A stretch of DNA of 64,000 nt from positions 3,125,233 through 3,189,232 of the forward strand of contig JACGCM010002394.1 in NCBI GenBank assembly GCA_014058105.1. Direction: 5' to 3'. The notes below the pieces were generated by a model. That model worked only from the letters and a program-made list of their open reading frames with translations, did no database searches and had not been told where the DNA came from. Of the stretch, positions 1-31,614 are shown one piece after another. Origin of the DNA: Kingdonia uniflora (Eukaryota > Streptophyta > Magnoliopsida > Ranunculales > Circaeasteraceae). Within the stretch, counting starts at the first letter, position 1. Every line of letters starts with the position of its first letter. A program made the position numbers and the translations under genes.

Positions 1-2000
1 ACCCCAGCCTTGTTCATGGGGTTTCATGTTCAACTTTTTCATGTAGAAATTCCCTGGTATGAATATGAGGAAGAGAATTTTGATGGCCTTTAATATACTC
101 AATAAATAAATCAAAAGCAGATAGTTCAGATTGCCATCAGGCAAATATCTGTTTAGATACAAGATTTTTGACATCTTTCTTAATGATGTCTTTGGCAGAG
201 CTGCAATCAATTCTGAGTAAAAATGTTTAATTTAATAAATTATCTTGAAATTTAGAAATACCTTTGACAATAGCAAGCATTTCTTTTTTAATAGTGGAAT
301 AGTTCTTTTGATCTGTTTTCCACTTTCCAGATGTAAAACAAAGTAATTCTTCTTTCTGTGAAGAAGGATTCCTTTGTTTTAATATTCCTCCAAATCCTAA
401 GTCAGAGGCATCTGTTTTTACAATCTTAGGCCAGTGGGGATTAGCAAGACCTAAGCAAGGGAGCTGTTTAATACGTAGTTTAATACGTTGAACAACTTGG
501 GTATGTTCAGGGGGTAGGAGTCTTAGTGAGTCTATTGTATAAGATCGAACTATCATGGGCAAGATTTTGATAATAGTCTGCAATATAATTGAGACTGCCA
601 AGAAATCATTATAATTGGGTTTTCTCCATAATTTAGTCTGGAAAATTAGAAACAAACTCAATACTTCTGTCAATGGGGATAATTTGTCCTTTTGAAATGT
701 TATGTCCTAAGAATCTTACTGTTAATTGGAACAGTTTGATTTTGGGGGCAGACAGGACCAAACCATTTCGACGGATAACATCCTTAAGGATTTTAAGGTG
801 TTTAAAGTGTTGATCAATAATATTGGAAAATAAAATAATATCATCAATATATACAATACATAAATCAGAATAAGGGATGAAAATATCATTCATAATATTC
901 TGAAATTCAGATGGGGAATTTTTTAATCCAAAAGGCATGACATTCCATTTAAAATGGGAAAATGGTACTGTAAAGGCTGTTTTATATTTATCTTCCTCAC
1001 TAATCTGGATTTGCCAATATCCTAATTTTAAGTCAAATTTGGGGAAGATAACAGCATTATAAAGACGATTCAAAAGGTCTTTTTTACTCGGGATTGGGTA
1101 ACGGATCCATTTGATAGAGTCGTTGAGAGGCTTATAGTTAACTACAAGTCTGGGAACACCTCTTTCCTTCTCAGTATTCTTGTTAACATTGAAGGTTGTA
1201 CAACTCCAAGGAGAGTAACTCTTACAGATAAGGTTTTTATCAAGAAGATCCTAAATTTCTATTTTTACATAGTATAAGATATTCAAAATTCATTTTACTA
1301 GGCCTAGCTTAAGTAGGTATTTGGGTTTTTTTGTCAAAATTCTGTTTATACGGTAAGGAAACAACATGTTGTTTTCGATCCCATAAAGTATTAGGAATGT
1401 TGCTATAGAATTCACTAATGAATTGATATTTAATAGTCTTAATTTTGGTTTTGACGTCAGAGGACTGAAGCCTATGAGAAATGTCCATAACATGACATTC
1501 TTCTTGCATAAAATTCAGTTGGTTTATTTAGAATCAATAATAGTTTTAAGTTCATTAATTATCTTGACTTCAGGACTTCTAATGAATTCAAAACTAATTT
1601 ATTGGCCTTCATAATTATAACATATCCCTTTCTGATCAACCTTATGTAAAGGCATGAGGAGACTAAGGAAAAGAGTGCCAAAAATAATTTGTTACTGAAG
1701 GTCGCGAACCAAAAGAAAGGTAGAAGGAATACAAGCACCTTTGTTACAGATCAAAGCTTCAGGAAGCTTATAATGGATTTGTAGTGTATTACCACTAGCA
1801 AAGATAAGAGATTGGATAGTTTTTTCAAAGTATTTGGTAAGAACCAATCCTTCTTGAATACAGTTAAGGTCAACGCCACTATCTATAAGAGAAATAGTAT
1901 TTTGGATGGTAAATTCATTGTGAATGACAATGGTAACTTGGATATACCATTTCTAGGCAATAACTTTATGAATAGAGTTTAGACAAAGGTTATCTTCTTC
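1..2000 (-). pseudogene. Pararetroviral protease / reverse transcriptase / RNase H remnant
   Basis: The minus strand reads, in fragments, an aspartic protease (about 1640-1960, with an IDSG active-site tetrapeptide), a reverse transcriptase (about 633-1240, with the catalytic motif YIDDI and the downstream FLGH motif) and an RNase H (about 200-470, containing KTDASDLGFGG). In the family these domains form one polyprotein that copies the viral RNA into DNA. Here the RT and RNase H parts lie in different frames (overlap at 633-673), and the protease-RT link contains stops. Assignment is by motif only. A Ty3/gypsy origin is less likely because the motif context around the RT active site and RNase H is of the pararetrovirus kind. 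Confidence 0.75.
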
Positions 2001-2816: not shown

Positions 2817-2936
2817 CATAGAATATGTGGCGATACTGACTGGAGAAGTCATGTGGAGAATGCGTGAGTTTGACATAAAGGTAATTCGAACTAGTCATAG
2901 CTCGATTTAGGTAAGATTGAGGGGTAGGCCCCTACA
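2817..2936 (-). repeat. Tat-1 3' LTR, first ~120 bp only
   Basis: Minus-strand LTR start TGTAGGGGCCTACCCC at 2936, matching the 5' LTR start at 17063 with scattered substitutions over about 115 bp. The rest of the LTR is displaced to the left of the window by the CACTA-type insertion ending at 2816. Confidence 0.85.
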
Positions 2937-2950
2937 ATCGCCCCCTCGCA
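2937..2950 (-). other. Tat-1 polypurine tract
   Basis: Minus strand gcgagggggcgat lies directly before the 3' LTR start. The same tract occurs before the 3' LTRs of Tat-2 (gcgagggggcaat) and Tat-3 (gagagggggcaat). It is the expected primer for plus-strand DNA synthesis. Confidence 0.75.
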
Positions 2951-3186
2951 GCCGAAGTCATGAGTGGCTTGAGTTGAGAAAGAATTTTTGAGATATGTGC
3001 TAGAAATTTGAATGAGGAAGGAAGTAATGGTGGCGTTTGATTGTATAAAGATACGCATGTCAAGGGGAAAGTACGTGCATTTATTGTTGATAGGAATATT
3101 AATGTATGTGATGGCTAGGGTATGAAGAGTTTCTTCATATTGAATGATGATGCTTGGGAAAATGTACCTGCACAATAAATGTAAGG

Positions 3187-3197
3187 TTATATAAATT
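3187..3197 (+). promoter_or_regulatory. TATA box of antisense small gene B1 (Tat-1)
   Basis: ttatataaatt on the plus strand, about 70 bp before ATG GTG AAG ACT at 3265. TATA boxes at a similar distance from a matching start codon occur on the minus strand of Tat-2 (28470-28480) and Tat-3 (36979-36986). Conservation in three element copies supports a real core promoter pointing inward from the 3' LTR, against gag-pol. Confidence 0.55.
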
Positions 3198-3264
3198 GTA
3201 CCTGTACCGAGGTTGGTGGTTAAGTACGCTTGTTCTGATACAAAATCTTTTGCATGTGGTGAAG

Positions 3265-3460
3265 ATGGTGAAGACTCGTAAGATGGTCTTGAAGAGAGAA
3301 TCGCTTCTAAAATGTAGAGGTTGAAGTTGAATTTTTTTGGAGATCAGTCCTTCGAGAATCCGACTCCTGTTCCTGTTCCTCCCACGTATCAAGGAATGCT
3401 AAAAATTAAGTGACTGAAGCTGAGGAGGATTTTTACTATAGATGGAGGTTTCACCACGTT
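3265..3460 (+). pseudogene. Antisense small gene B1 of Tat-1 (broken)
   Basis: The frame starts MVKTRKMVLKRES at 3265 and soon meets a stop (GGT TGA near 3322), but homology to the Tat-2 and Tat-3 versions continues: a region coding about PTPIL..P.TYHGM in those copies is recognisable as a shifted 'actcctgttcctgttcctcccacgtatcaagga' stretch here. The product of the intact family would be a small protein of 57-71 residues or the first exon of a longer one. Function is unknown and no known domain was recognised. Confidence 0.5.
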
Positions 3461-4483
3461 GTCTTGACATGTGAGCAACGCTGGGTTTATCTCCGCATCC
3501 TTGCGGAAGACAAGGTTGGGGGGACAGATGTAGGGATTGGCATAATTGCGGCATAGTTACGCTGATGTTTTACGTCGCAGCAGATTCTAAAGTCGGGCCC
3601 TTTCCATCTCTACCAACTCAGCGGGGCTGGTGGGCATTGGGGAGGCGGTGATGGTAGTAGAGGAGGTAGACGGAGAATGGAAGTCTGCTTCCGCATTTCC
3701 ATCACTACTTTGCGCTGAGAAGGCCTTCGATTTAAAGGGTTAGTTCAGGCACAGAATCTCATGTTCTCATAGTTTCCATTTTAAGTTTGTCTAGAGTTTG
3801 ACCAAACTCAAGGGAGGGAGGATCTTCGTTGTGTCCAATGTCTGCTTTGCATCAGGTGAAAAATTACTAAAGCAGGACGAACTGAAGGATTTGAAACTTC
3901 AGAGTACCTGAAAGACATGTTAGCTGTAAAAGCACTGAAAAACTTGTTATCTGTAAATTACCTGAAGCTGAGTATTGGACAGAACTTCATCTGTAAAGTA
4001 CCTGTTGTTGAGTACTTGAAAGACTTGTAATCTGTAAAAGCGCTTGTAATATGTTTCAAGATGAATAAAATTTGTTATCCAAATTTGTGTTGATATAAAA
4101 ATAGAATAACTCTAGAAGCCGAGCTGCATGAAGAGTTTAGAATATTGTATGAAATTAAATATATGAGTGCAAAAGGTAAAATACTTGTAATAATTGAACT
4201 GGTATATATGGGAGAGGAAAAAAATTGTAGGAGCTTTAGAATGGAGAATTGATCTTGAAAGGTCATTTTTTAGAAAATTAGATCCGGAAATAATAAGTTT
4301 GATTGGTAACAGTCCAGGATTACTGAGCTTGATAGGAAGAGATACGTTCAAATAATTTCTCACAAGATAAGGGGAATTTGTTACGAGATAAAAGGAAAAT
4401 AGTATGATTTGCGTAAAATTGATAGTAAAAATAGATAAATAAGGGTAAAATGATTTCAAAATTTGGGGAAAAAGATTAGAGCG
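3461..4483. other. Tat-1 antisense block: non-coding spacer between B1 and B2
   Basis: No convincing reading frame on either strand. It contains repeated short phrases of the form 'aaagacttgtaatctgtaaaag..acctgaagctgagta' (about 3890-4050), also present in diverged form in Tat-2 near 27660-27760. The spacer therefore belongs to the element and is not host DNA. Confidence 0.5.
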
Positions 4484-4834
4484 ATGTGGACTCGAGCCCA
4501 GGGAATCTGTTACGCCGCTAAAGGACGATTGGCAATAAAGATCGCTGAAGTGCGGGAGAAATTTTTTGGACTGTTGGGTTATGATGCTAAGTTGCCAGTA
4601 AGGGAGTGTCAGTTTGAAGGATTATATTCAATGGGAAGGGAGCTTGAGTTTTCCCATTTTTTCTTTGAGAGATTTTTTTGTAAACTGGTAAGGGATCCTG
4701 TAGATCTAGAAGAGGTGGTGGGATTGATTGCTAAGGTAGAAATCGAATTTGAGGATGCGGGGATCGCTATAGGTTTACCTGTTGGTTGTGGTTTTTTAGG
4801 TCATCAAGGCTACTTTAGATGTAATTATATGTGA
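4484..4834 (+). CDS. Antisense small gene B2 of Tat-1, ~116 aa, unknown function
   Basis: An open frame on the plus strand, opposite to gag-pol. The start chosen at 4484 gives MWTRAQGICYAAKGRLAIK, which aligns with the Tat-2 start MVRTQSVRVCQAAKGRLVI at 27135 (minus). The open frame extends 21 codons further up to 4463, but that part is not conserved. The middle and end (LVRDPVDLEEVVGLIAKVEIEFEDAGIA) are shared with Tat-2. The protein is acidic toward the C terminus with no recognised domain. The MV(R/K)T beginning resembles small gene B1, suggesting an old tandem duplication. This copy is open while the Tat-2 copy has three in-frame stops. Confidence 0.5.
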   Translation: MWTRAQGICYAAKGRLAIKIAEVREKFFGLLGYDAKLPVRECQFEGLYSMGRELEFSHFFFERFFCKLVRDPVDLEEVVGLIAKVEIEFEDAGIAIGLPVGCGFLGHQGYFRCNYM

Positions 4835-5228
4835 GGTGAAGAGAATGAATATAAAATAGGTGTGACAGAGTATAACTATTTTAAGTTTGAATAATTTAAA
4901 AGAAATTGTTGTTGAATAGATCCTCTATTTTGGTGAATATTATTTGTGATTGTTGTGTAAAAGATGAATTTAAATTTTTTTGAATTTTTCTTATGGGAGC
5001 TTTGGAAATGATGTCAGTGTTGCTATAAGAGTAGAAAAAGAAGCATGTAGGGAGCTTTTGAATTTGTCTCTTGTGGAAAAGTTGTAAAAATTCGATTACG
5101 TGTAAAAGTGAGTCAAAATGAGGGTGGTGAGGTCAGAAGGAGAGTTGGAAAAGAGAGATTAAAATATATTAAAATATAAGGGAAAGGGCAATAATGGGAA
5201 GGATTTTTTGCCGAAAAGATGCAAGACG
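4835..5228. other. Tat-1 antisense block: spacer before long antisense gene
   Basis: No frame or structure recognised, AT-rich. The equivalent part of Tat-2 (26550-26800) is similarly uninformative. Confidence 0.4.
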
Positions 5229-5242
5229 TTTGACATGGATAG

Positions 5243-5320
5243 TGGAAGGGATGTCTTGGTTCCAAAACCGAGGACGGCTCATGGAAGGGATGTCTTGGTT
5301 CCAAAACCGAGGACGGCTCG
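5243..5320 (+). repeat. 39-bp direct duplication upstream of the antisense promoter
   Basis: Two near-perfect copies of a 39-bp unit beginning tggaagggatgtcttggtt (5243 and 5282) lie about 40 bp upstream of the TATA box at 5360. Tat-2 has only one copy of the core (ttccaaaaccgagg) at the same place. The duplication arose in the Tat-1 lineage in a likely promoter-proximal region. Confidence 0.75.
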
Positions 5321-5359
5321 TGCGAGGCTCAATAACTACCAACAGTTAGAAAGAGAAAA

Positions 5360-5367
5360 TATAAATA
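5360..5367 (+). promoter_or_regulatory. TATA box of long antisense gene (Tat-1)
   Basis: tataaata in a block (cagttagaaagagaaaatataaat..cttcatc, split here) shared with Tat-2 on the minus strand at 26400-26450. It lies about 190 bp before the proposed first ATG at 5549. Shared upstream blocks in two diverged elements support a core promoter. Confidence 0.6.
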
Positions 5368-5548
5368 CTGCTTCATCTTCGTCAATCAGACATTTTTCCA
5401 CTTTTGAAAACTTGAAGAGCAGTGAGAGAAGAAGGAAGAAGAGAGGCAAAAATGGCACAACACTTGTAGATTTTTAAGCGAAAGGGATCATCAGTCAAAG
5501 CTCGAAAGAGTTACTGAATCAGAATCGCAAAGGTAGTTATACAGTAGC

Positions 5549-8500
5549 ATGGTGAGGGAAGGATACGGCGCTGCCTCGGATTCACATTCTGATATAGAAG
5601 GTTAGTAGATATATGTGATGCGTGTATGCGATTTTCAAGATCAATTTTTATTGTTAGGAAAAACGGTAAATTACTATTTATAGTAATCTAAGAAAATCAA
5701 CTTGTTTATTTGTGATATAAAAGATATTTGAATGTGGTTGACGAATATATATAAAAATAACCATAGATACCTGGACCTTTGTGTAGGTCGGTCGTAAGGA
5801 GTGTTGTCTAGGATAAAAATCATTTCCTGTAGCTGATATAAGGAATTCCCCTGTAAATTAGGCATCGACCTCTGGTCGGCTAACTGAGTCTGAGATTAGA
5901 ACGTCTGGAAGTAAGGAAGAAGTAGGTGTTGATCATTTTCCAGATTTCCCTAGAAGATTGATGTTCTATTCTCCTCACTCAGATGTATTCAAAGAGTTTT
6001 GTAAAGCCAAGGCTTCTATAGGAGGTAGATGGGGAAATTGTATCGATTATGTCGGTAGACAATTTAGGGGTTGCACTGTAACAACGGGAGAAGAATATTT
6101 TTATCTGTTGGCCAATTTGGAGAAGGAAAAAAGGGATAGAGGAATAGAGGAATCGATCTCTGTAGAGTATTATGATGAGAATGTTCATAATAAACTTTCT
6201 GATGGTTTTTTATGTTACCTGTCTCAGTTGAAGTACGGGTTGAGTCTTCCCCTTAGCAATCTGGCTAAAGGGATTATAAATCTTATCGGTGCATGTCCCG
6301 TTCATATAAATGGGAACATGTGGGAGGTGATAAGTGTTTGCAAAGCTTTGAATATACGGTGGGAAGGAGAGAGTTGAAAGAGGAGGATATCCTCTAAGGA
6401 TGTGTTATAGTTTTACGGTGTAAAAAAATTATAGTGCAAGTGAAAGGGCTTATTTATGTGTAAAAGCAACTCGATTTTGCTTCATCGATCTGAACTCAGC
6501 AGGTCGACCTTGGAACGATAATATGATATTGGTGAAGGGTGACTGCCTTCAGAGAGATGATGAAGAACCCATAGAACTTCTGTTTAGAACTGTAAAACAA
6601 CGTAAGTATAACAATGTATAATGTATTAGATTGATAGTAGAAATTGTACGATGCCCGTTGATGTTGGTGTTTTGTGTATAACAAGTCCTAGGTCGCAGGC
6701 GACGAGGAAAGATTCATTGTTGAATAAAGTTCCTCAAGCGGAGACAGAACTCGAGGCTGAACTAGAAGATCTCGGCATTAGTAGGAAGAAGCGTGTTAAC
6801 AGCCGAGTTGAAAAGGTTCTAAAATCTCATTCGACAAGGCTAATGAAGAGTGTTGACGGTAGCAAAAGTAAGGGGGCTGATGGGAAAAGGTGAGCAAACT
6901 TGCCTAAGGCCCCTAGAGTGGACACAGGATTACCGGAGTCCATTACGTCGAGCAAATTAGCTCAAACGTTCCCCAAAAGGCAAATGCTAAAGCGTCATGT
7001 AGCATTGAGGACCACGGGAAGTGGTGAGGCTACAGAAAAGGTGAAAAAGAGAAGGGTCGAACCTTCTGAATTGTTGGGGGGGGGGGGAGGAAGGTCGTAG
7101 AAGATCGACCCGATGTTGAGGACAATTGGAAAAGGTGGAGGAAAAGGCCAGGTTGGCGACTCTCCACGGGGAGGAGGAGATGAGTAAAATGGTAAGTTTA
7201 TATGCTCGAATAAATTTAATTTTGTATTATGATTCAAGCTAATTAATAAGGTCGACTTTGCTTGATTTTTGTAGGTCGCTTTGCTAATGAAGGGATATGC
7301 CTCGTGGTCGAAGAGGAGAGAGCTGAGCTGAAGATGAGGAATTTCAAACTCGAAAGGAGCATAGATCGATTAAAGTCAAATTTGAGCAAGGAGGGAAGCG
7401 GCTGGAGGCCCTGAAGGCTTCCCAAGTTGTAGAGATCAAAAAGCTGGGGACGGAGGCAAGGGTGGATTTGGATGAGGCGGTAGATGAGCGTGACAGGCTC
7501 GGGCGGCACCTTATGTCTAAGGGATACTCTGAAGACGAGGTGGAGGCCATTAGGATTGGCATCTACGTGGAGGAGGAGGTTGAAGATGATGTTGTTGGGG
7601 TTGTTGATGGGTTGGATGGTATGTCTCCTCAGACGGTGAGAGACAACCAAGGGGATGACGATGAATACCCAGAGGTGGAAACTGAGAAGGTAGGATAGTG
7701 TGATGGCACTGTTATTTGTATGAATGTTATGGAATGTTGTAAACTGATTAGATATATTTTGAATAGAATTATACTGGCTAAGTTGCCTTTGTAAATATTA
7801 TTATAGGGACTTAAGGACATACGCCTCAGAAAAAAGGATTTATAGGTGGAGCTTGCTGAAGAGAGAGAAACCTCAGCGTCCATGTTGTCTTCTCAAGCGG
7901 AGCTGCAGGTTAGAATAGAACAAGACATATTTGATTTGTATGCTTCATTTATATAGAAGCACAAAGTAATTGATAGAGTGTAGAGACGGACCAAAAACTC
8001 GTTAGCTGTTTATGTGCAAATGGCCCTGGAATGGTGCGCATAAAAGATGTTAGTCTTTGGCAAACAAAAATATAGAGAATGTGTACCTTAGACTTGGAAG
8101 TATATGTAATGGAGCATTCATCCGAGATTATACTTTGATCTTATGTTTAGAAATAGCTTTGCACAGTAGATGTCAAAAAATGGATATATTGTTTGAAGTG
8201 AGTCAGATGCAGTGATTGAGTGTTCTGAATCGAGCTTGATATAATATAACTGCTATGTACAGGTCGAATTGGAGTTAACTCACTTACGCGAAGATGAAGC
8301 TTTTCAATATAACCAAGAATTTGTAGAGGAATTTGATAAGATTAGAGAGGTGAATGAAGATAGAGAAGATTAACATGTGAAGGTGCACTTTAAGTTTATT
8401 GAGGCAACACAAACTGTTGTCGACCTGACTTGGCAGATCGAGGAGAAGGATGCCAAAATTAAGAAAGGGCAGAAAGAGCTCGAGGAGTTAAAAGAACATG

Positions 8501-9627
8501 CAGTGAAACTCAGAAGCCAGAATGATGCATTGGTGGTAAAGAGCAGAGAAGCTGACATGGCTCGTTACTGTATACATGCTCTAGAAAGATCAGAGGAAGA
8601 TTTAAATCGGTCGATGGCTGGTTTGAGAAATGATCTGGCCAGGAAAACTCATGACCAAAAAAAAATTTGATCTGATCTGGCGAATAGCAGGTGCGAGCTG
8701 AGGCGATTGAAGAAGAAATTAACTGATAAAGATAACTAGCTAAAGGGAGCTCGAGACGATTTGTCTGCGTCTGAAGTTGCAGTCGAACAACTGACTATAG
8801 TTTTCTCTATAAAAGATATGGAGTTCAGGATCATACAACGCAAGTGTAATAAGTTGAATAAGAGAGTGGTTTAATTAAAAACCGATCTGGCGCAGGCCAA
8901 TTCGCATGTCAGAAGCATCGAGGCTGGCTAGAGCTCGAAGAAGAATAAAAAAGATGCCAGAGTTTCTCTTGTTCAAGGTGATATCGTTAGTCTGTCAGCT
9001 CAAATAAGAGAATTGGAGGGGGACGTTGCTCGAATTCAAGGGCATGTGTATAAAGGAGTTGAGCAGTTACGGGAGTGTCAAATAAAGCTGGACTATGCTC
9101 TTGTCAGGGAAAAAGGTTTAGAGCGTATTATCCGAGGGAAGGAGATTGTTATAAAGGATAAAGAGGAATTGTTAAAGAAAATTCTAGATGTGGAAGAACT
9201 GAACAAAAAGATCGAGATACTTAGTGCTCAGGTGGTTAATTTAGAGGTGATTAATCGAGCTAAATCAGCTAAAGCTGATGAAAAATCTGTAGAGAACATA
9301 GCTTTAATAGATTGAATAGACAGAGAAATAGAGAGTCAGAAAGCACGGTACAAGAGGTTAGAAGATCGCCTTCAGAGGTTAAGGACGGTGTTCTCTCACT
9401 TAGTTATAACTCAGGCCCGGCATTCAGAATTGCTAAAGTCGGTGATTGCTTATTTTGTAGATGAAGTAAAAAGAATTGAGTTAGAGAGAGATACCTTGTT
9501 CGACTGTATGTCAGAAAAGGGATGTTTCTGCAAGGTTGATATAGATCGAGGAGATTACACGAGCTCCATGGGAATAGATTTGGGCCCTCGATCTGCTAAA
9601 TTGATAGAGGGGGTAGGATTGCTGTAA
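5549..9627 (+). pseudogene. Long spliced antisense gene of Tat-1 (transposon-type N domain + coiled coil)
   Basis: Opposite strand to gag-pol, between the 3' LTR and integrase. Proposed exon 1 at 5549-5600, then exons separated by introns at about 5601-5870, 6602-6685, 7192-7274, 7690-7806 and 7909-8262, all but the first matched in Tat-2. The N part (5958-6377) contains LSDGFLCYLSQLKYGLSLPLS and CPVHINGNMWEVISVCKALN, resembling the plant 'putative gypsy-type transposon' domain (PF04195-like). Later exons are charged and heptad-rich (8377-9315), i.e. a long coiled coil, ending in a conserved tail VIAYFVDEVKRIELERDTL..GCFCKVDIDRG before the stop at 9627. Stops near 6377, 8350, 8670, 8740, 8880 and 9315 break this copy. 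Function unknown; a role in element biology is inference. Confidence 0.7.
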
Positions 9628-9739
9628 TTGCTCGAGCTCAAGAATTCATGGCTAGTCAATCTTCTGTTGTAAGGGTAAGCGAAACTGACATCCCCACAGT
9701 AGAACAGACTCCATTGTAGTGGCTGTATATAACCTGAAA

Positions 9740-10560
9740 AGATATAATATGTGTCGCAGACATGTTGAGAGATGAAAGCTAGTTTTACCTTTGTTTTATC
9801 CTATGTCTGGTTGAGCTCTTTGATTGAAAACTAGTATCACCTTTGTTTTAACCTCGGAGTTGATTAGATTTAGTTAAACTAGGTATAACCTGAATTAAAC
9901 TGGTAGAATGTCACAGACATATTGAAAGAGATAAAAGTTAGTTTTACATTTGCTTTATCTTATGTCTGGTAGAGTCCGTTGATTGAAAACAAGTTCTACC
10001 TTGTTCTAACCTTATAGATTTAGTAGAGTCAGCCAAACCAAGTGTATTCTTGATTTAACTGGTATGATGTCGCAGACATATTGAAAGAGATGAAAGCTAG
10101 TTTTGCTTTTACTTTATCTTATGTCTGGTAGAGTCCATTGATTGAAAACAAGTTCTACCTTGTTCTAACCGCAGAAGATTTAGTAGAATCAGCCAAACTA
10201 AGTGTATTCTTGATTTAACTGGTATGATATCATAGACATATTGAAAGAGATGAAAGCTAGTTTTACCTTTACTTTATCTTATGTCTGGTAGAGTCTATTG
10301 ATTGAAAACAAGTTCTACCTTGTTCTAACCGCATGAGATTTAGTAGAGTAAGCCAAACCAAGTATATTCTTGATTTAACTGGTATGATGTTGCAAACATA
10401 TTGAAAGTGATGAAAGCTAGTTTTACTTTTGCTTTATCTTATGTCTGGTAGAGTCTATTGATTGAAAAATAAGTTCTACCTTATTCTAACCGCAGAAGAT
10501 TTAGTAGAGTCGGCCAAACCAAGTGTATTCTTGATTTTAACTGGAATGATGTCGATTGAA
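9740..10560. repeat. Tandem array, period 160 bp, about 5 copies (Tat-1)
   Basis: Units recur at 9741, 9901, 10061, 10221 and 10381, each holding 'gacatattgaaagagatgaaagctagtttt', 'cttatgtctggtagagtc' and 'ggtatgat' landmarks. The array sits between the end of the antisense gene and the integrase stop. Tat-2 has a related array at the same place (21790-22350). Tandem repeats in the 3' part of Tat-clade elements are known and can seed satellites. Confidence 0.85.
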
Positions 10561-10729
10561 AGCTAGTATTATCTATGCTTTAATTTATGTATTGTCTACA
10601 AAGTAAAAAGATGTATGGAAAAAACTTGCAAGTTTCAATAAATTTTGAGAAAGGATGTATATTGGATGGAGATGAAAATCTTACTTCTGGAATGAAAAAG
10701 CGAGAAACTAAAATGGAGTAGTTATGGAC

Positions 10730-11900
10730 CTAACGATAATATCGTTTTAGTCGCCTAGTGTTCCAAGGACTCAAAATTTGGACGCCCTCTTCTGTCATGA
10801 GATAATATGATCCCAGGCCTGAGAGGCCTGTGATAAGGAATGGACCCTCCCAATTGTCTGCTAGTTTCCCAGCATGAGACTTTTTACGATATTGAGGTAT
10901 CTCAATAAGGATGAGATCATTGATTTGGAAGGTACGGCTTCTGACTCGCTTGTCGTAGGAACTGGCCAGCATATGGTGATATCGACCTAGGTTAGCAATG
11001 GCGTGTTCCCTGGTTTTATCAATCCAATTGAGGTTGCAAGCCAATTCGAACTCATTTTCCTCGTCAGTTAGCTCGTAATCTTTGACTGGGTAATAGAATT
11101 CAAAGGGAATGACAGCCTCAGTGCCATAGGCAAGGAGGAATGGAGTACAGCCTGTCGACTGACATGGAGTGGTATGGTATGCCCATAAGACATGAGAAAG
11201 CTCTGGAACCCAATTCCCTTTTTTTTTAGAGTGTAGCCATTTCTGGAGTCCATCCATGATGATTTTGGGGGTAATTTTGACTTGGTCATTGCCTTGAGGG
11301 TAGTAGGGATCGGATGGTGTGTAAATGATGTTGTGTTGGTTGAGGAAAGCTACAAATTTTTCTCCAACAAATTAGGGACCATTATTGATACGAATTAGGT
11401 GGGGGAACCCAAACCGAGTGATGATGTGTTCTTAGATAAAAGTGATGACCTCTTCTTCTCTGGTTCGACAAAGTGGAATTGCTAATACCAGCTTTATAAA
11501 ATAATCAATAGCTACAAAGAGGTAGCGGCAGTTACCTGGAGAATTAAGAAATTTGCCGATAAGATCGAGTGCCCATATCTTGAATGGCCAAAACACTTAG
11601 CTTATATGAAGTTCGAGCGCAGGGGCGCACATCATATTTCTATGTCGTTGATATGCGCTAAATTTTCTTGAGTACTCTTCTTCTTACTTACGCATGCCGG
11701 ACACAATAATCCTTGTGTAATGGCTCTGCTTGCCAGTGATCGACCTGCGACATGGAAGCCACAAGTCCCTTCATGTAAATCGCAGAGCATCTCGTCCGCT
11801 TTCTATTTGGAGAGGCACTTGAGGTATGGCCCGTGACTGAGCCGTGTACAAGGTACCATTTTGATTGGTGTAGCGCTTTGGGTTGTCTATCAGCTGTAGG
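10730..11900 (-). pseudogene. Tat-1 integrase (broken)
   Basis: An open C-terminal stretch at 10730-11257 ends RLKRYYR-stop, preceded by the core in other frames. The core has a first catalytic Asp (ALDL), but the second site reads IRINNG where DNG is expected and the third reads QVKI where E is expected, so two of the three acidic residues look lost. A C-terminal chromodomain was not seen. The family inserts element DNA into chromosomes. Minus strand, downstream of the second RNase H. Confidence 0.75.
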
Positions 11901-11929
11901 CGCTCCTTCGGATCTGCTGGAAGTGGTCC

Positions 11930-12540
11930 TTCATATTTATTGTTGATACCAAGATAAACTAAGAAAGGCTTTTGCCAATCGTCATCTCCCCCTTTATCGC
12001 CCCCAGTTTTGATCGTGCATACAAAAATACAATCAATGTTGGGGGCTGAAATTACTTTGATCTGGAGATATCAAGCTTCTGTACCTAAGACCCCGGCTAG
12101 ATATGCCAAGGAATCGGTGTGTCCATTTTTTCCTCAGAGAAGATAATCGAGAGTTGCTTGCGCAAACTTGCTCATCCTATCTGCAATGAGGGTTGCGTAT
12201 TCAATCATCTTGCCATTCTTCTTGTACTATTCAGAGTAATGGCGAATGATGAGTAGTGAATCTGTGTAAACTGAGAGCTCGAGGACGCCGAGCTCAAGAG
12301 CGAGATCTAGTTCGTGAATGAGAGCTTTGTACTCGGTAACATTGTTTAAGGCCTCAAAATTCAAACGGATTGATTTCTCAATTCTGTCGCTGGAAGGGGT
12401 AATTAATATGATTCAAATTCCTGACCCTGCGAGTCCTTTTGATCTATCTGTAAGAAGTTTCTACCCATTCCTCGTTATCCATTCAGTTGGTTCATCAAAT
12501 ACTTTGTGGGGTGGATCTTCTGTAACATCCTCTTTAAGGT
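11930..12540 (-). pseudogene. Tat-1 second (archaeal-like) RNase H
   Basis: By alignment with the open Tat-2 version (20017-20360), the minus strand here codes the extra RNase H found in Tat-clade elements between the ordinary RNase H and integrase. Recognisable parts are the NNVTEYKAL-type helix (near 12330) and the end with an ADSLAYL-like motif near 12110. Several stops interrupt it. Confidence 0.6.
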
Positions 12541-12556
12541 CAGGATCGTATTCCTC

Positions 12557-13900
12557 TCACTCGGGGTCTTCCACTGGAAAATTTGTGAGGAAATTGGCAA
12601 TGGTCTGGCCCTTTTCGGAATGACATTGTTCGAACTTGATATCAAGTTCTCCCAAACTGACTGACCATTGTTGCACTCTCCTTGATTTTTCTTTCTTGGA
12701 TAGAACCTCCCAAAGTGGGTAGTTCATCATGACTTTGACTAAATGAGCTTGGAAGTAGTGTTTGAGCTTCTGTGAGGTATAAACAACGGTGAGAAGAAGT
12801 TTCTCAATTTTAGAGTACCTTGTTTCCACTAGAGTAAGAGTTTAGCTGATAAAGTAGATTGGCTTCTTGATTTTCCCTTCAAGTCGAATGAGAACCGAGC
12901 TGAATGAAGTATCTGTAACTGCTAGGTAAATAATTTGTTCCTCATTATCTATTGGGGTGCTCATGGTAGGAGACTTCCCCAAGTAGGTTTTGAGGTCCTG
13001 AAAAGCTGTTACGTATTCTGAAGTCCATTAAATCTCTGTATTTGGCTGTACTAATCCTTGTTTGGTACAACCACAGAGTAATAGAAACAACCAACAATAA
13101 CGACCTAAAGATTTTGAAAAGAAACGGTTGATGGCGGCAATCTTGTTGGCAAGTTTTTGAAAGTCTTTTATTGTGTTTGGAGATCGCATGTCGAGGAGAG
13201 CCCGAATCTGATATGGATCGGCCTCAATCCCCTTCTTGCTGATGAGGTGGCCTAGAAATCGACCTGAATGTACTTCAAATTGACACTTATCAGGATTGAG
13301 AAGCATCCTATAAGATTGAAGAATGTTGAATATTATGTTAAGATCTGAAATGTGGTTAATGGACTGTATGCTTTTGCATAAGAGATCATCAATGCAAACT
13401 TAAACGACTTTCCCGAGTTGTGCTTTGAACATAGTATTCATTAAGCGTTGATAAGTTGTACCTACATTTTTTAGTCCAAAGGGCATGACTTTGTAACAAT
13501 AAATCCCTCTTTCAGAAATGAAAGTGGTATTTTCTTGATCCTCATCCAAGAGTAGAATCTAATTGTATCCCGAAGCAGCGTTCATCATAGATAGGAGTTC
13601 ATGACTTGTTGTGGAATCAGGGACCTGATAAATATTAGGAAGAGGGAAACTGTCCTTTAGATTATGTTTGTTGAGATCAGTCAAATCCACACAAACTCAG
13701 ACTTTCCCATTCTTCTTTAAGATAGCGATGATGTTGGATATCTAATCTGGATATTTGGCTTCTCAAATAAATCCCACTTTGATCAATTTCACGATCTCCA
13801 TGTTACATTTATCTCAAAGTTGTGGTGACAGGTGATACTATTTCTTTTTTACTACTGTGGCGTTGATGTTAATGGCCAATTTGTGACATGCCTTGGCTGG
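12557..13900 (-). pseudogene. Tat-1 reverse transcriptase and RNase H (broken)
   Basis: RT lies at about 13020-13900 and RNase H at 12557-12960, minus strand. The RT active site reads VCIDDLL (near 13380-13400), so both aspartates are kept. The thumb part LNPDKCQFEVHSGRFLGHLIS is open at 13230-13306. RNase H keeps KLKHYFQAHLVKVM. In-frame stops (e.g. in the palm around 13700 and 13900) disable it. It copies element RNA into DNA in intact relatives. Confidence 0.8.
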
Positions 13901-14098
13901 ATCAACCCTAGGTATCTCTTCGAAAGACCACACAAAAACATTTCGATTTAATTGTAAGAACTGAATGAGAATGTCTTTTTCATGTTGAACCAGCTTAGTA
14001 CCAATGAAAGTACCTTTGTTAGGTTCAGCAATGTTGATGTATTCGGTAGGCTCCTTCCTGGAAGGTTGATCATCGGGGTGATCAGCTTTCTACAATTT

Positions 14099-14527
14099 CT
14101 ATGCAGCATATCTGTCTAAGGTATCTAGAATAACAGAGACGGTATTTTTGCAAGCTCGAGAAAGCTTTTGACTACCCCTGATCTCATAAATACCATCGTT
14201 AGGTTTGAAGCGGAGAGCTTGATGATAGGTAGAAGCGATTGCTTCCATGTTATGAATCCTGCAACGACCCATAATCCCGAGATAATGAGACTTGGCATTG
14301 ATCACATAAAAGATGCCACCGATTGTGGCTGGTCCGCTGGTAATAGGCAAGATGATCTTCCCTACTCGTTCTTCCTTAGAACCATTGAACCAACTAATAT
14401 CGGTGCAGCTTTGAATGACTTGATCGACTAAACCCATTTGGTCGATAGTACTCTGAAAGAAAATCTCAATATCGCTGCCAGTATCGATCATCATCATATG
14501 CATGACAAACTTCTTCATCTTGAGCAT
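14099..14527 (-). pseudogene. Tat-1 aspartic protease domain
   Basis: A 142-residue open stretch with the active site MIDTGSDIEIFF near residue 15 and the later motif YLGIMGRCRIHNMEAIASTYHQ, typical of Ty3/gypsy protease regions. It processes the Gag-Pol polyprotein in intact elements. The DTG triad is intact here but altered in Tat-2 (DIG) and Tat-3 (DTS). It is open only as a segment of the polyprotein. Confidence 0.8.
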
Positions 14528-14799
14528 TATGACTAATGCATCATGATGTAGGAATTTGACATGACTAGTATCGCAATCTTTGAATGATGTCCCAAGTCGG
14601 CGATTGCTCGACTCAGGCAGAAGTTTGGCTTCTTTGTCTTGAGGTGTGAGATCGCAGCATTCTAATAATCTCCTTCCCTTGAATCTGTTAGAGTTGGTGA
14701 TCTGATTGATCTTGATTATATTGTTGAGATGTATATGGTAGAGATGCTTCTCCTCAGCCTGATCTTCAACCTGGAAAAAATAGCTACTTCTTATAGCTG

Positions 14800-16372
14800 C
14801 CCTCCTTGTATGATTTCAGGTCAAAAATATATTTGAACATTCATCCCTCCTTGAAAATATACTCGGGAAACCTCTGTAAAGCATAGCAATTGTGAGTAGA
14901 ATGATATTTTACCTTATAATGCATGCAATACAGCCAGCTCTCGATTGATTCAAATAGCTGGGAGTGACGGTAGAGCTTATCCTTTACGAGGATTAGAAAA
15001 ATCGTAGATATTCAAACATTCATCTTTGGGAGGACTGGTTTGACTTGTGATCTGCCTTTCTGAGGGTTACCGGTGTTTCCCTTGGCATGCTTTTGGTTAC
15101 CCTACTCCTCCTTTGGTTCAGTGGTTTGATCTGTAGATGAACCTTTCATAGAAAGGACGGATTTAGTAGATTTATGCTTTTCAGACGTCATCCTTTCCTG
15201 GTTGACATAACTATTGACCCTGGTAATCATATCCTCTATGGTCACAAATTTGTTGAGAAAGAGGTGCTTTTTAGCTTTGCAGTCAAGTTGTATCACGTTG
15301 GTGAAAGCAGTAACAACTATTTTCTGATCGAGGTTGTCCACTTTACGTGTGAGCTCCAAGAACTTCTTTGCAAATGCCTTAAGCATTTCTCTGTGGGATT
15401 TTTTAAGATTGATAAGAGAGTATACATTTTCTTCTTTGTCTCTGTTGTAAGCATACGTCTTGATGAATTGTTTCTGCAGTTGGTCGAATTTGTATATGGA
15501 GTCTCCCGGTAGAGAGTAAAACCATCAGAGTGGTTCCTCCTTTAGACTTTTGGCAAACAGATGGCAGAGAATGTGGTTAAGATTGGAGTACAACCCCAAT
15601 GTATCACGGTATTGTTGAATGTGTTCCTTTGGATCGGTACCCTTGTATTTACGAATTTTCGGAGTATGAAAGCCTTTCAAAATATTCATATCAAATAGTT
15701 ATTTGGCAATCGGGCTTCCTTGTAGCTTGGTAAGGTCGCTGGTAGCGCCCAGAACTTGTGCTTTGATCAACTCCTTAATACGCTGGTCCATATGCTCTTG
15801 TGTGGCGTAGTAACGTGTCGGTTGAGTGGCTTGAAGAGGAGTTGCGGATTATGAGTACCGGTGCCTTCATTCAAACGATCTTGTGCTAAAACTCGAAGCT
15901 GAGGTCTTTGTTACTCCTCTTGACGTACTGAACATCGGTGACCTCGGCTAATCTCAGACTGAAGCTTATCCCTCAAATGAATGGAAGGTTGGGGATCATT
16001 AAAAACATTCCTGGAAATAGCTTTGCTGGTGGCCCCTTGAGGTCCCAATCTTTCAGGTGCTAAGACCTGAGAGGCTTCTGGTACCTAATTGCGGTCTCGT
16101 ATTCGAAGAGCCTGGTAAATATTCTATAGAGCTTGTAGGGTAGTCTGCATTGTTGTCATTTAATCTTCATGTCGTTTGAGTGTTATCAAACAAGCTTGTC
16201 ATTCGACGTCAAGCTCCTTCACACGGGGCTCTCTGTCATGAGTTAATTGTGGTTCGAGCTCGTTGCATTTTTTCGTTTCAGTATTGAAATTCGCCAGTAG
16301 CTCTGTAAGTTGTTATGGCTCAACTGAGGGATCGAGCTGGATTTCAGTTGCTGGTCGTCTAGATGTGACCAT
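14800..16372 (-). pseudogene. Tat-1 gag (broken)
   Basis: Begins at ATG 16372-16370 (MVTSRRPATEIQLD), 57 bp after the primer site, with early in-frame stops. A well-kept block at 15102-15386 (FAKKFLELTRKVDNLDQKIV) is shared with Tat-2 and Tat-3. A C-x-x-H...C knuckle-like motif (YCMHYKVKYHSTHNCYAL) occurs near 14880-14940. Gag packages element RNA. Confidence 0.75.
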
Positions 16373-16450: not shown

Positions 16451-17063
16451 TGTAATGGCCTAATTCCGTGAGCTCGAAGTTGTCTAGAATTAGTCCTTAC
16501 ACTAATGTACCTGTGACAAAAATCTAATAGACAAGAAATGTGTTTAGCGTGGAAAACCTATGAATAGGTAAAAAAACCACAATCTCGTATTGAGGGTTTT
16601 TGTAATAGTGACGTTTATTGCTTGAGGCTGATGATATCTTATTACAAGTTATTTCTAGATTTAGAAATGATTGACCTTGTAAATAAGAATTTTGGAGCTT
16701 TGAGAATCTTTAGAAAATATAGTTTTCTTGGTGATTTCTCTTGTAATTTTTTGGTCCCTATTTCTTCTGGAAAATTTTCTTTATATAGGTCTCTTCCGCA
16801 ACTCTTCTTCATGCTGAAGCACGTTCTTCGAATAATGTGGTTAGTGGCTATTTGACTGAGTAACTGCTGAGTTCGTGAGAAATAGGTGGCTTTGACTTGT
16901 TTAAGTTTTTCGGTTTGAGCTCGACTTACATTTCTTATCAGTTCCGGGAGTATGTGGTGATGTTGACAGGAGAAGACGCGTGGAAAATATGTGAGTCTGA
17001 CATAGAGGTAATTCGAACTAGTGACAACTCGATTTAGGTAAGATCGAGGGGTAGGCCCCTACA
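16451..17063 (-). repeat. Tat-1 5' LTR (613 bp)
   Basis: Minus strand from TGTAGGGGCC (17063) to ATTACA (16451). It contains a TATA-like tatataaag (near 16785-16793, minus) and an AATAAA-like signal (near 16611-16621). Its end resembles the ends of the Tat-2 and Tat-3 LTRs (aggccattaca / aggtcattata / aggcccttaca). Confidence 0.85.
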
Positions 17064-19929: not shown

Positions 19930-20500
19930 CAGAGCACTGAATGGGCTACAAGGAAAAGGTGGAGACTTCTTACAGATAGTTCAGCAGAACCCGTAGGCTC
20001 AGGAATTGGAATCCTATTGATTACCCATTCCAACGACAGAATCAAAAAATCAATCCGCTTGGAATTTGAAGCCTCCAACAATGTCACCGAATACGAAGCT
20101 CTCATTCATGAACAGGACCTTGCACTCGAGCTTGGTGTTCGAGAGCTTTCAGTCTATACCAATTCTCTTCTCGTCGTCTACCATTACTCTGAACTGTACA
20201 AGAAGAATAACAAGATGATAGAATATGAAGCCCTCATTGCAGATAGGATAAGCAAGTTTACGAAAGCAACTCTCGATTATCTTCCCCAAGGTGAAAACAA
20301 ACACGCCGATTCCTTGACTTATCTAGCCGAGGTCTTCAGTACAGAACCCAGATATTTACAGATCGAAATGATATCAACCCCCAACATTAATCCACATTCT
20401 GTATGCACGATCAACACTGGGGGCGATGAAGAGGAGGACGACGATTGGCGAAATCCCTTCATTGCCTATCTTGGCCCCAATAACAAATATAAAGGGCCCC
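19930..20500 (+). pseudogene. Tat-2 second (archaeal-like) RNase H
   Basis: The open part from 20017 codes FEASNNVTEYEALIHEQDLA, followed by VYTNSLLVVYH (an Asp of the usual SDSQLV motif is Asn here) and HADSLTYLAEV. This extra RNase H between the ordinary one and integrase is the best evidence for the Tat clade. The following acidic linker (GGDEEEDDDWRNPF) joins it to integrase. Confidence 0.75.
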
Positions 20501-21648
20501 ATCCAACAGATCCGAAAGGGCACCGACAGTTGATCGAAAACTCGAAGCGCTACACAGTTCAGAAAGGTTTTTATATCGTCGTTCAGCCACGTGGCCTTAC
20601 CTCAAGTGCCTCTCCAGGAAGAAAGCATACAGAATGCTCACAGATTTACATGAAGGGACTTGTGGCTCCCATGCCACAGGTAGATTACTCGCTAACAGAG
20701 AAAATACGTAAGGAGTATTCTGGCAAGGCATACGCAGACAAGCAGAAGAGTGCTTACACAAATGTGACACATGTCCATGACATGGACACATGATCTGCGC
20801 CCCTGCGCTCGAGCTATATGCAAGCAAGGTGTTCTGGCCATTCAAGCGGTGGGCTCTCGATCTCGTCGAAAAATTTCCTAATACTCTAGGTAACCGACGA
20901 TACATACTCGTAGCAATAGATTATTTTTCAAAATGGGTGGAAGCAGTTCCACTCTGTCGAACTAGAGAAGAGGAGGTCATCTCTTTTATCTGGGAACACA
21001 TCATCACACAGTTTGGATGCCCTCACCTGATTCGGATCAACAAACACAACATCATCCACTCACTATTTAATCCCTACTACCCTCAAGGCAATGGCCAAGC
21101 CGAAATCACTAACAAAACCATTGTGGATGGACTCAAGAAAAGTCTTCAATAAAAAAAAAAGGAAACTAGATACGAGAGCCTCCTCATGTCTTATGGGTAT
21201 ATCGCACCACTCCACGTCAGTAACCCGGCTGTATCTCATTCCTTCTCGCCTATGGCATAGAAGCCGTCATTCCAACAGAATGCCACCATTCAGTCAAAGA
21301 TCACGAGCTTACAGACAAAGAAAATGAGTTTGAATTGGCCTACAGTATGAATTGGATTAATGAAACTAAAGAACGCATTATTGCTAACCTAGATCGATAT
21401 CACCATATGCTAACCAGCTCGTACTACAGAAGATTCCAAAACTGAACATTCCAAATCGACGATCTCATCTTCAGATAAATCCCTCAACACAGAAAAAGGC
21501 ACATGCCGGGAAACTGACAAAAAATTAGGAACGTTCATTTCTAATCATTGGTCAAACTAGTCTGGGATCATATTATCTCATGACGAAGCAAGGAGTTGGA
21601 ATACCAAATCCATGGAACACTAGATGACTGAAAGGGTACTATCGTTAA
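20500..21648 (+). pseudogene. Tat-2 integrase (broken)
   Basis: The core at 20790-21152 begins with RWALDLVEKFPNT and holds AIDYFSKWVEAVPL. It lacks the block with the second catalytic Asp: GCPHLIRINKHN jumps straight to the segment before the Glu, which is present (GNGQAEITN). The C-terminal part ends GYYR-stop at 21646-21648, as in Tat-1 and Tat-3. Several frameshifts occur. Confidence 0.75.
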
Positions 21649-28741: not shown

Positions 28742-29045
28742 TGCAGAGACTTATCCCTCGAGCTGGCCCAATTTGAGCTACTTCCATGTTAGTCTCACGC
28801 ATTTTATACATGATATAAATAGTCAGTATTGGCACCTATTCCACGAACTGAAAAAGAACGTGGATCGAGCACAATAGAAGAACATGAATAAGTCAAAGAC
28901 ACTTGTCTCCCACAAACTCAATAGTTACTCAGCCAACCACCACTTACCTCATTGTTCAGAAAATGTGCTTCAGCACGATAATAAGCTGCGGGTAAGGCCT
29001 ATATAAAGAAAAAGTTCCAGAAGAGACAGGGACGAGAAAAAAAAC
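28742..29045 (+). repeat. Tat-2 3' LTR, first part
   Basis: Begins TGCAGAGACTTATCCCTCG, like the Tat-3 LTR start at 37247. It contains the LTR promoter-like tatataaag (near 29000-29010). It is interrupted at 29045 by the small LTR element and continues at 31871. Confidence 0.8.
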
Positions 29046-29640
29046 TGATAGGCATGAAAAATGCTTATTTTTGTCTTTGAATTTACATGATTTATAACCT
29101 TATTTATTTTTTTACTGGGGCTAATTAAAGTATGTTTTTACTATTACAGGTAAAGAGATATTTGTGACCAAGCCCTTCTTCAAGCCCAACTCTTACAAGC
29201 TAAAGAGCTGTTGGAGATGATCAGTTGTTAAGAGCTGCTGGAGTTGATCAATTGTCAAGAGCTACTGGAGATGATTAGTGTCAGGAGCTACTGGATACTT
29301 AGTATTCAAACCTAGCTAAAATATCTCTACAAAATCTGGGTGGTTAAGAGAGAGTAGGACTTTTGTTAGGGGATAAAGATAGAGTTGTAGAGAGGAAAGG
29401 AGATCATATTTTTCTCTCTGGAACCACCGTAGCTTTATTCTTCCAGAGAATTATAATATTTTATGGAATATCTTGGGAAATCAATTGGAATCAATCTCTC
29501 TAAGTATTTTCATCAATAGTTCTTCTTTATAATTTACATTTTATTAAATTTGATAATATGAACCATGATTTGATCTATGCATTGCGGAAGAACGACAACC
29601 CTAACCTATACAACAACACCCAATTTGATACGGCCCATCA
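29046..29640 (+). repeat. 5' LTR of the small non-autonomous element
   Basis: 595 bp, TG..CA ends. Its last ~250 bp (29390-29640) match 31615-31870 at clearly high identity, e.g. ctctctggaaccac and tatggaatatcttgggaaat. Confidence 0.8.
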
Positions 29641-29642
29641 AA

Positions 29643-29662
29643 TGGCGTCGTTGTCGGGGATG
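29643..29662 (+). other. Primer binding site of the small element
   Basis: tggcgtcgttgtcggggatg directly after the 5' LTR; it resembles the TGGCGCCGTTGCCGGGG-type sites of plant Ty3/gypsy elements with a few changes. Confidence 0.7.
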
Positions 29663-31370
29663 CAATCGATTTTAAAATCGTGTTTTTGCTATTGAATTAT
29701 TATTCCATTTGACAAAAAATTTGTTATTTTTATTAGTGATTTTTCTTCTGTGTTGCTCTGCTTGAGGTATGTGTTTGACGTGTTGTGCGTAAGAAAAGTA
29801 CGAAGGCAGTTCTAAATTTAAACTAGAACTCAGCAGCCAACAGGGTCAAAAACTGACAGCCTTGTTTCGTCCAATTGATCTGCAACATCATAGAACAATC
29901 TCTCTAAAAGCTGACCCTCTCACTCAAAATAGTCTCTCTCAAAATAGACTTTCACACTCTCACTCTCTCAAATCACCGATCTCCCATAAAATCCTCCATC
30001 TCTCTCTCTCTCTCAAAATATAGACTTTAAATTACAAACCCAAAATGTCTCTCTCTCAAAACACCAGCTTCCTCTATACTTCTGCTCACAAACTCGATCA
30101 TTTTTGCTCTTGATTGGAAGGGGTTTTCTGCGTTTGATCTTTCCATTTGCTCCTCCTCTTCAATTCTAAAGCTTGACGTTCCAAATTGGTGTATTGCTCT
30201 CGGCAGATTCATTCTAGAGTTATCATTTTCTTCAATAGCTCTCGTCCTCTCCACCACTGATCACGTTTCTTCTCAACAATCGACAGTTTCAGTCCCAGAT
30301 TATGCACTCAAACTTCAATGTTTGCGCTTGGGTTTACAAGATCTCACTAAAACCTCTCTCTGATTTAGGGGTTTTAAGTTTCTGATTTCCTCTGATTTTC
30401 CTTCTGATTGTTGCTCAATTACCAAAGGGTTTGTTTGTAATTGTTCAATTCCCTACGTTTGGGTTCTAATTTTGTAAGTTTGGCTTCCAATTTCACACCT
30501 TGCTCACGGTAGTTTTTGACCTAGGGTTTGTCAGTTTTCAACTTGTGGTGTTGTGATTGAGGTTTGCAGGTGGTAATTGGTTTTTGTTTGTTGATTGTTA
30601 GACTGTGGTGTCTATGTCTTTGTCTTGGTGAAGATTGGGGCTTTGTTGTTTGCAGTGAGTGATTCTGGGGTTTCTACTGGTTTGGGGGACTCTATGATTA
30701 GTAATTGATTGGGTTCAGCTGTTAATTGATTTGGGTTCAACTGTTGATTTGCCTCCCAAATATCTGTTGAATCTTTGAAGCTCGGTAACTGTGATTCTAA
30801 TTGTATTTGTGACGGGTAAATCGTATCACAATTTCATGGTTTTTACTTTTGTTTACTCTACGACTACAGTAGTTTACTTTGTATCTGGGTTTTTGTTTTT
30901 GATTAATTTTATTAAAATTAAGTTAAAGTTTGAATTGTGTTTGGTATTTGATCAGAGGTTGCTATCGTAATCTTCGTCGCCTAACAGTTTCTTTTGTATA
31001 ACTTTGTTCATAACCACCAAGTATTTTAGAGCTTGTCCTTGTGAAGAACAAGTCTGGTCAAATAATTGTCACTTAAAAGCTCTACCTATGTATTCCTCTT
31101 GTATGAACGACGGTATCTTTTGCTCAATCTAGACAGTTGGGTAGCATTTATGCTACATACTTGGTTCACAAACACAGACACACATAAGTAGTATTTTTCA
31201 AGTTATTGAAGGAGATGGGCATGGTTGATTAAAGTAAAGCGACAAAGCCAAGAAGACTTTTAGTTGTTTAAATTTTTATATACTTTTAGTATTATAAGGA
31301 TTAAGAAAATGTTGTGTAAAGTTTAATGAATGACGCTCTGTAAGGTGAAGAAATTGTACTTTGCTGCAGG

Positions 31371-31494: not shown

Positions 31495-31614
31495 GTAAGT
31501 AATCATCTTTTCATCGTACCCTCCATGTCGCGGTACATCGTTGTTCAACTATTGTTTGATTGAGTAAATGTTTAAGCATTGTGTGATTAACATTCTTATT
31601 CCTATTCTTACTTT

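Follow-up and report, generated by a model that had tools for sequence, protein, structure and literature searches.

Does the region between integrase and the 3' long terminal repeat (LTR) of a plant retrotransposon hold genes of its own on the strand opposite to gag-pol? The question is raised by Tat-1, an element in a stretch of 64,000 nucleotides from Kingdonia uniflora (contig JACGCM010002394.1, positions 3,125,233 to 3,189,232; hereafter the window, to which all coordinates refer), and by its relatives in the same window, Tat-2 and Tat-3. A preliminary description of this DNA had claimed at least three plus-strand genes in Tat-1, namely B1, B2 and a long spliced gene, opposite a minus-strand gag-pol, and had taken them for a second transcription unit. 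Our best explanation, to which as a whole we assign a probability of about 0.75, is that Tat-1, Tat-2 and Tat-3 are decayed members of one Tat/Retand-type Ty3-gypsy family, that the living family had gag-pol plus an antisense accessory block between integrase and 3' LTR, and that selection preserved B1, B2 and the long gene as proteins while the elements diverged.

Selection on the antisense block

Protein-level similarity between Tat-1 and Tat-2 on the plus strand of Tat-1 forms three blocks, which in the coordinates assigned here are B1 (3264-3754), B2 (4484-4834) and the long gene (5838-9627). The features are listed below, with the ratio of nonsynonymous to synonymous differences per site (pN/pS) for the exons of the long gene.

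3188 to 3196, plus strand: TATA box of B1, TATATAAAT; conserved at the aligned Tat-2 place (28479)
3264 to 3754, plus strand: B1, small antisense gene, about 165 aa; ATG at 3264; broken in Tat-1 by frameshifts and stops
4484 to 4834, plus strand: B2, small antisense open reading frame (ORF) of about 116 aa; uninterrupted in Tat-1; its start and its stop both have counterparts in Tat-2
5360 to 5368, plus strand: TATA box of the long gene, TATAAATAC; conserved at the aligned Tat-2 place (26419)
5838 to 6601, plus strand: first coding exon of the long gene, TRP28-like stretch; pN/pS 0.43
6602 to 6684, plus strand: intron 1 of the long gene; GTAAGT donor in both Tat-1 and Tat-2
6685 to 7191, plus strand: exon of the long gene, the third if an untranslated first exon exists; pN/pS 0.38; based on Kingdonia gene models
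7192 to 7274, plus strand: intron of the long gene; splice sites aligned between Tat-1 and Tat-2
7275 to 7689, plus strand: exon 4 of the long gene; pN/pS 0.48; splice sites aligned with Tat-2
7690 to 7806, plus strand: intron of the long gene; splice sites aligned between Tat-1 and Tat-2
7807 to 7908, plus strand: exon 5 of the long gene; pN/pS 0.57 on 33 codons; splice sites aligned with Tat-2
7909 to 8262, plus strand: last intron of the long gene; splice sites aligned between Tat-1 and Tat-2
8263 to 9627, plus strand: last exon of the long gene, coiled-coil-like; pN/pS 0.40 on 337 codons

The same blocks lie in the same order on the minus strand of Tat-2 (B1 from 28401 to about 27910, B2 at 27135-26782, long gene at 25945-22466). 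Tat-3, which is much shorter in this region, keeps B1 (36914-36585) and the counterpart of the end of the last exon (35863-35531). Both arrangements are as previously described. Most of the evidence comes from Tat-1 and Tat-2, compared as a pair without a tree; they are about 67% identical over the main stretch 5299-8982, and their synonymous divergence is about 1.2.

For this pair the corrected ratio of nonsynonymous to synonymous substitution (dN/dS), with codons containing stops or gaps dropped, points to purifying selection in all three blocks. It was 0.25 for the long gene (95% confidence interval (CI) 0.20-0.32; 825 of 853 codons), 0.29 for B2 (CI 0.10-0.53; 116 of 120 codons, computed on 4472-4831) and 0.38 for B1 (CI 0.23-0.60; 139 of 148 codons). 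In substance, the claim of a gene block opposite to gag-pol is confirmed. The gag-pol value was 0.32 (CI 0.28-0.37; 1804 codons in 26 high-scoring segment pairs), biased toward conserved parts by the use of pairs with E <= 1e-4. Shuffling that destroys the codon-position structure gave a null mean pN/pS of 0.74-0.76, not 1, so that the permutation is a fairer yardstick than a comparison of pN/pS with 1. The observed pN/pS was reached in 0 of 600 shuffles for the long gene (841 codon pairs), in 3 of 2000 for B2 (120 codon pairs, again on 4472-4831) and in 26 of 2000 for B1 (147 codon pairs). B1 has the weakest permutation result of the three, and its frames were assembled from four stretches, which leaves some choice in the result.

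In most exon windows the Tat-1/Tat-2 mismatches cluster at plus-frame third codon positions; from one exon to the next, the phase they favour shifts in step with the open frames. Tat-2 stops, which were not used in drawing the blocks, number 21 in the named frames vs 38-109 in each of the five other frames, summed over blocks. For B1, Tat-2 and Tat-3 could also be compared: mismatches amount to 39/19/63% at codon positions 1/2/3 (75 codons), with 49% amino acid identity. At fourfold-degenerate sites, 48.5% of 204 differ between Tat-1 and Tat-2 in the antisense block (within 2937-10730) vs 34.2% of 234 in seven gag-pol ORFs (10733-15524); this contrast could be due to gag-pol exchange between lineages or to extra constraint on synonymous sites of gag-pol.

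Candidate promoters and putative structure of the long gene

The plus strand of Tat-1 between 2938 and 10730 has 14 TATAWAW matches, three of which, at two places (3188/3190 and 5360), are conserved at the aligned Tat-2 place; two of the other 11 fall where Tat-2 has no aligned position. Both conserved places are at gene starts, upstream of B1 and of the long gene only. The distance from the box to the B1 ATG is 74 nt (counted from 3190) in Tat-1, 76 in Tat-2 and 72 in Tat-3. Three genes with promoters of their own had been proposed, which goes too far. The aligned boxes point to two promoters instead of three: conserved candidates precede B1 and the long gene, B2 has none, and the Kingdonia protein P0001 fuses the start of B1 to the long gene.

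The long gene starts with ATG in Tat-2 (25945), where Tat-1 has ATA at 5838, and its frame ends at matching positions in the two elements (TAA at 9625-9627 in Tat-1, TAG in Tat-2). Alignment suggests four introns, with GT at eight of eight donors and AG at seven of eight acceptors when Tat-1 and Tat-2 are counted together, and the earlier view that the gene is spliced seems to hold. The five putative coding exons sum to about 3150 nt, or about 1050 residues. The last intron (7909-8262) has a Tat-1/Tat-2 identity of 0.64-0.74, similar to many exon windows, and may hold a signal for either strand.

A database search with the TRP28-like exon returned five K. uniflora hypothetical proteins with 44-72% identity, all automated gene predictions. 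P0002, P0003 and P0004 begin at the aligned place of the Tat-2 ATG; the first two coding exons are joined at the corresponding place in the matched segments of P0001 and P0005 and, by reading of the sequences, in P0002 and P0004. P0001 spans the next junction too, and together these models reproduce the start and two junctions. The search with B1 found one relative, the K. uniflora hypothetical protein P0006 (E 2.4e-13, 47% identity over 56% of the query), and that with B2 found none at E <= 0.01. The last exon gave weak, sub-threshold Pfam matches, many of them, in our judgement, to coiled-coil families.

Three candidate features were rejected. The TRP28-like exon is not a separate gene, being joined to later exons in the Kingdonia models; a coding exon between the TATA box and 5838 was dropped, its frame not being kept in Tat-2; and a poly(A) signal AATAAA at 10637 in Tat-1 was not used, being absent from the Tat-2 counterpart.

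Architecture and lineage of Tat-1

Tat-1 is a degraded Tat/Retand-type Ty3-gypsy element with the following parts.

16451 to 17063, minus strand: 5' LTR of Tat-1, TG...CA, 613 bp; first about 117 bp match the 3' LTR remnant; TG at 17063
10730 to 16372, minus strand: gag-pol region of Tat-1, broken; candidate gag ATG at 16372; pol stop at 10730-10732; Pfam Retrotrans_gag, RT_RNaseH and sub-threshold RVT_1
9748 to 10553, no strand assigned: tandem array, 5.1 copies of a 160-bp unit; separates pol and the long antisense gene, which converge on it with their 3' ends
2938 to 2947, minus strand: polypurine tract GAGGGGGCGA, directly before the 3' LTR; read from the sequence; counterparts in Tat-2 and Tat-3
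2821 to 2936, minus strand: 3' LTR remnant of Tat-1, 116 bp; cut off by a CACTA-like end

The 5' LTR ends with CATTACA, followed by the primer-binding-like (PBS-like) TTTGGCGCCGTCTGTGGG; stretches related to this LTR are present in Tat-2 and Tat-3. Because the polypurine tract lies at 2938-2947, the stretch of about 7.8 kb from there to the pol stop (10730) is internal to the element. B1 as part of the LTR was ruled out, since the LTR begins after the polypurine tract, at 2936. Tat-2 has a unit related to the 160-bp repeat at about 21.8-22.3 kb, and in Tat-3 the resemblance is weaker.

The Pfam matches of gag-pol lie in minus-strand ORFs between 12.5 and 15.5 kb. Retrotrans_gag and RT_RNaseH (12560-12841; 31.9 bits, cut-off 24.8) are above the Pfam cut-offs and RVT_1 is below (24.3 vs cut-off 29.6). 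No Pfam match was obtained for the last pol ORF (10733-11371), to which integrase is provisionally assigned by its match to Tat-2, where ORF 20781-21149 has a sub-threshold rve match (26.4 bits, cut-off 32.6). Directly before the latter, Tat-2 has RVT_3 (19930-20790; 31.8 bits, cut-off 21.6), which we read as aRNH; Tat-1 11855-12487 and Tat-2 19936-20568 are 79% identical. The dual RNase H of Tat elements, consisting of the original RNH and aRNH (PMC5348765), is thus found here, and Tat-1 has antisense ORFs between pol and 3' LTR as Retand elements do.

The 3' LTR of Tat-1 is cut by a CACTACAAAAAAAA end at 2576-2820, adjoined by a 40-bp tandem repeat; presumably a CACTA-type DNA transposon ends here. 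One LTR seems to be common to Tat-2 and Tat-3 (28747-32140, 37249-37742). The insert that splits it has a direct repeat on either side, at least 165 bp long (29394/31623, 88%), and the arrangement resembles a product of LTR recombination.

Comparison with known systems

That extra antisense ORFs are established for such elements, as the preliminary description held, is confirmed by the survey of Vicient 2025 (PMC11963269), according to which Retand elements are Ty3-gypsy elements with a long region between pol and 3' LTR that carries antisense ORFs. The survey finds TRP28 in 97% of clusters and also describes Smc-like domains and tandem arrays. Antisense accessory genes are described there as nearly universal in recently active Retand elements, and DNA binding is predicted for TRP28. 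Tandem arrays are reported in about half of Retand elements, often adjoining pol or the 3' LTR (PMC11963269); the Tat-1 array adjoins the pol side. The Tat-1 LTR of 613 bp is within the Retand range of 315-1194 bp, whereas its region from pol to 3' LTR (about 7.8 kb vs 2.9-6.6 kb) and its internal region (about 13.5 kb vs 7.4-12.9 kb) are longer and may include inserts (PMC11963269). TRP28, typical of Retand, is weakly matched in Tat-1.

The long gene of Tat-1 is split by introns, while the word 'intron' is absent from the Retand survey. B1 and B2 are below its 600-bp ORF threshold, shorter ORFs having been taken only if they bear TRP28 (PMC11963269). Searches of an open-licence PMC library turned up no account of intron-bearing antisense genes in such elements ('intron' is absent from PMC7264820 as well), nor any of conserved antisense genes as small as B1 and B2. 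The antisense layout is thus ordinary for the Retand group; the introns, the two conserved promoter boxes and B1/B2 look new.

Maize Grande gene23, as recounted in PMC7264820, is likewise an antisense gene between pol and 3' LTR, with a promoter upstream of itself and a nuclear protein. It is one described gene, in contrast to three conserved blocks with introns in Tat-1, and the likeness is by description only, as is that to ORF2 of PvRetro13, an antisense ORF with an SMC domain (PMC7264820). In layout, the accessory regulators HBZ and APH-2 of human T-lymphotropic virus (HTLV), encoded opposite to gag-pol, are analogous, with no homology claimed; the HTLV antisense promoter lies inside the 3' LTR, unlike the candidate boxes of Tat-1 (PMC11963269, PMC7264820).

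Proposed mechanism

In the living family, host RNA polymerase II would read the antisense block from the two candidate promoters. The long transcript would be spliced and would encode a protein of about 1050 residues with a TRP28-like N-terminal part and a long coiled coil, its mRNA ending near the tandem array that separates the long gene from pol. B1 and B2 would act as helpers.

Introns on the strand opposite to the genomic RNA are not removed during retrotransposition. The introns of the long gene would therefore persist through each round, their splice sites being unseen by the spliceosome on the genomic RNA, which would explain their possible persistence over a synonymous divergence of about 1.2 and would make the antisense orientation a natural place for an intron-bearing gene. 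Old introns in a retroelement would in turn be a sign that the sense genomic RNA includes the block when the element is copied.

The long protein might act in the nucleus, binding DNA or chromatin and regulating how the element itself is transcribed or integrated, a role to which we give rather less than even odds. The Grande antisense protein is nuclear, and a regulatory role has been suggested for such proteins (PMC7264820). A more far-reaching proposal, tentative and itself somewhat short of evens, is that of a multi-gene antisense module with at least two promoters and with introns carried through many RNA-mediated copying rounds, in which B1 would represent a new family of small proteins, whose fold may be cystatin-like, with a helix on a sheet.

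If antisense genes bear introns, a search that sets a minimum ORF length, as the 600-bp rule does (PMC11963269), sees pieces only and misses small genes like B1; spliced gene models would supply the correct proteins for testing. It has been recommended that antisense and spliced transcripts of such elements be looked for (PMC7264820). Antisense transcription would be recognisable in RNA-seq because a spliced read fixes the strand.

Weighing of the explanations

Several observations weigh against our explanation. All three copies in the window have stops, frameshifts or deletions and are fossils. The Tat-1 frame blocks were bounded by Tat-1 ORFs, so that Tat-1 stops at block ends are uncounted. 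In the first coding test one B1 block was mis-phased, with pN/pS of 0.64 in the named frame and 0.48 in another, and the phase was corrected before dN/dS was computed. Non-coding stretches are not all flat: taking the lowest pN/pS of any frame, intron 6606-6686 reaches 0.48 on the minus strand (23 codons) and intron 7915-8260 reaches 0.59 on the plus strand (97 codons). No TATA box before B2 is conserved between Tat-1 and Tat-2, and that of the long gene lies 474 nt ahead of the Tat-2 ATG, so that a 5' untranslated region (UTR), perhaps with an intron, has to be assumed; a possible donor in this putative UTR of Tat-1 is not kept in Tat-2. In the first coding intron of Tat-1 the acceptor AG is one base later than the aligned place. 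The PF04195 (TRP28) match in the first coding exon of Tat-1 (ORF residues 118-159) has E 0.027 and 15.1 bits, below the cut-off of 26.2; no match at E <= 1 was found in P0001-P0005 nor in one Tat-2 stretch, and the structure model of the TRP28-like stretch was unusable (pLDDT 32.7). The proposed nuclear role is based on the published analogy with Grande gene23, not on data from Tat-1.

The putative second transcription unit of the preliminary description is partly supported, by the selection on plus frames, the two aligned TATA boxes, the aligned splice sites, the placement convergent with pol and the array between the 3' ends. Instead of being separate genes, B1 and B2 might be the 5' parts of a single long antisense unit of transcription, some of whose mRNAs would join them to the TRP28-like exon by splicing. 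P0001, which starts with B1 (MVKSRRKV...) and runs into the TRP28-like exon and later exons, suggests this, as does B2 with no conserved TATA box of its own. P0001 was predicted automatically, and a deletion in its copy may have shaped it; P0002, P0003 and P0004 open with the ATG of the long gene. Tat-1 and Tat-2 both retain another TATA box ahead of the long gene, and their B2 stop codons coincide in position. We consider the single unit unlikely.

The introns and TATA boxes resemble those of ordinary nuclear genes, and capture of host genes is known for plant LTR retrotransposons (PMC7264820, PMC11963269). The block could accordingly stem from one or more host genes, introns included, taken up in reverse orientation by an ancestral element. 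This is improbable: the block is common to diverged elements and is located where Retand antisense ORFs sit, and no named host gene was found, Kingdonia hypothetical proteins being the only relatives (TRP28-like exon five, B1 one, B2 none) in a search that reaches only relatives with short exact words in common.

Selection might also have acted on the antisense RNA itself, by way of double-stranded RNA, silencing or transcriptional interference, with the frames incidental, as has been suggested for antisense transcripts of such elements (PMC7264820). The layout convergent with pol and a last intron as conserved as many exon windows are in its favour; the codon-level selection in B1, B2 and the long gene, and a favoured phase that follows the open frames from exon to exon, make it very improbable. 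It is hardly credible that the plus frames are open by chance or are shadows cast by coding sequence on the sense strand: some minus-strand frames are also long (7246-7797, 184 aa), and one with shared wobble positions scores close in exon 3 (pN/pS 0.40 vs 0.38), but the plus frame has the best amino acid score in seven of seven blocks and the lowest sum of Tat-2 stops, although individual blocks can depart from this, and the permutation control argues against such a reading too.

Other features of the window

Minus-strand ORFs at 43526-46999 have SWIRM (E 1.5e-14) and flavin amine oxidase (E 3e-55; C-terminal piece E 2e-21) matches and are probably a host gene, which we take to be a plant LSD1-type histone demethylase gene. 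Adjoining it, a 27-bp tandem repeat (42218-43027) carries a long open frame on each strand (283 and 230 aa), for which no Pfam match was found at E <= 0.001. At the left edge of the window (636-1250, minus strand) there is a good RVT_1 match (E 1.4e-32) from another retroelement or a pararetrovirus-like insert. Finally, 50678-52727 and 56460-58509 form an inverted pair of 2050 nt with 98% complementarity, 3.7 kb apart, perhaps a recent inverted duplication.

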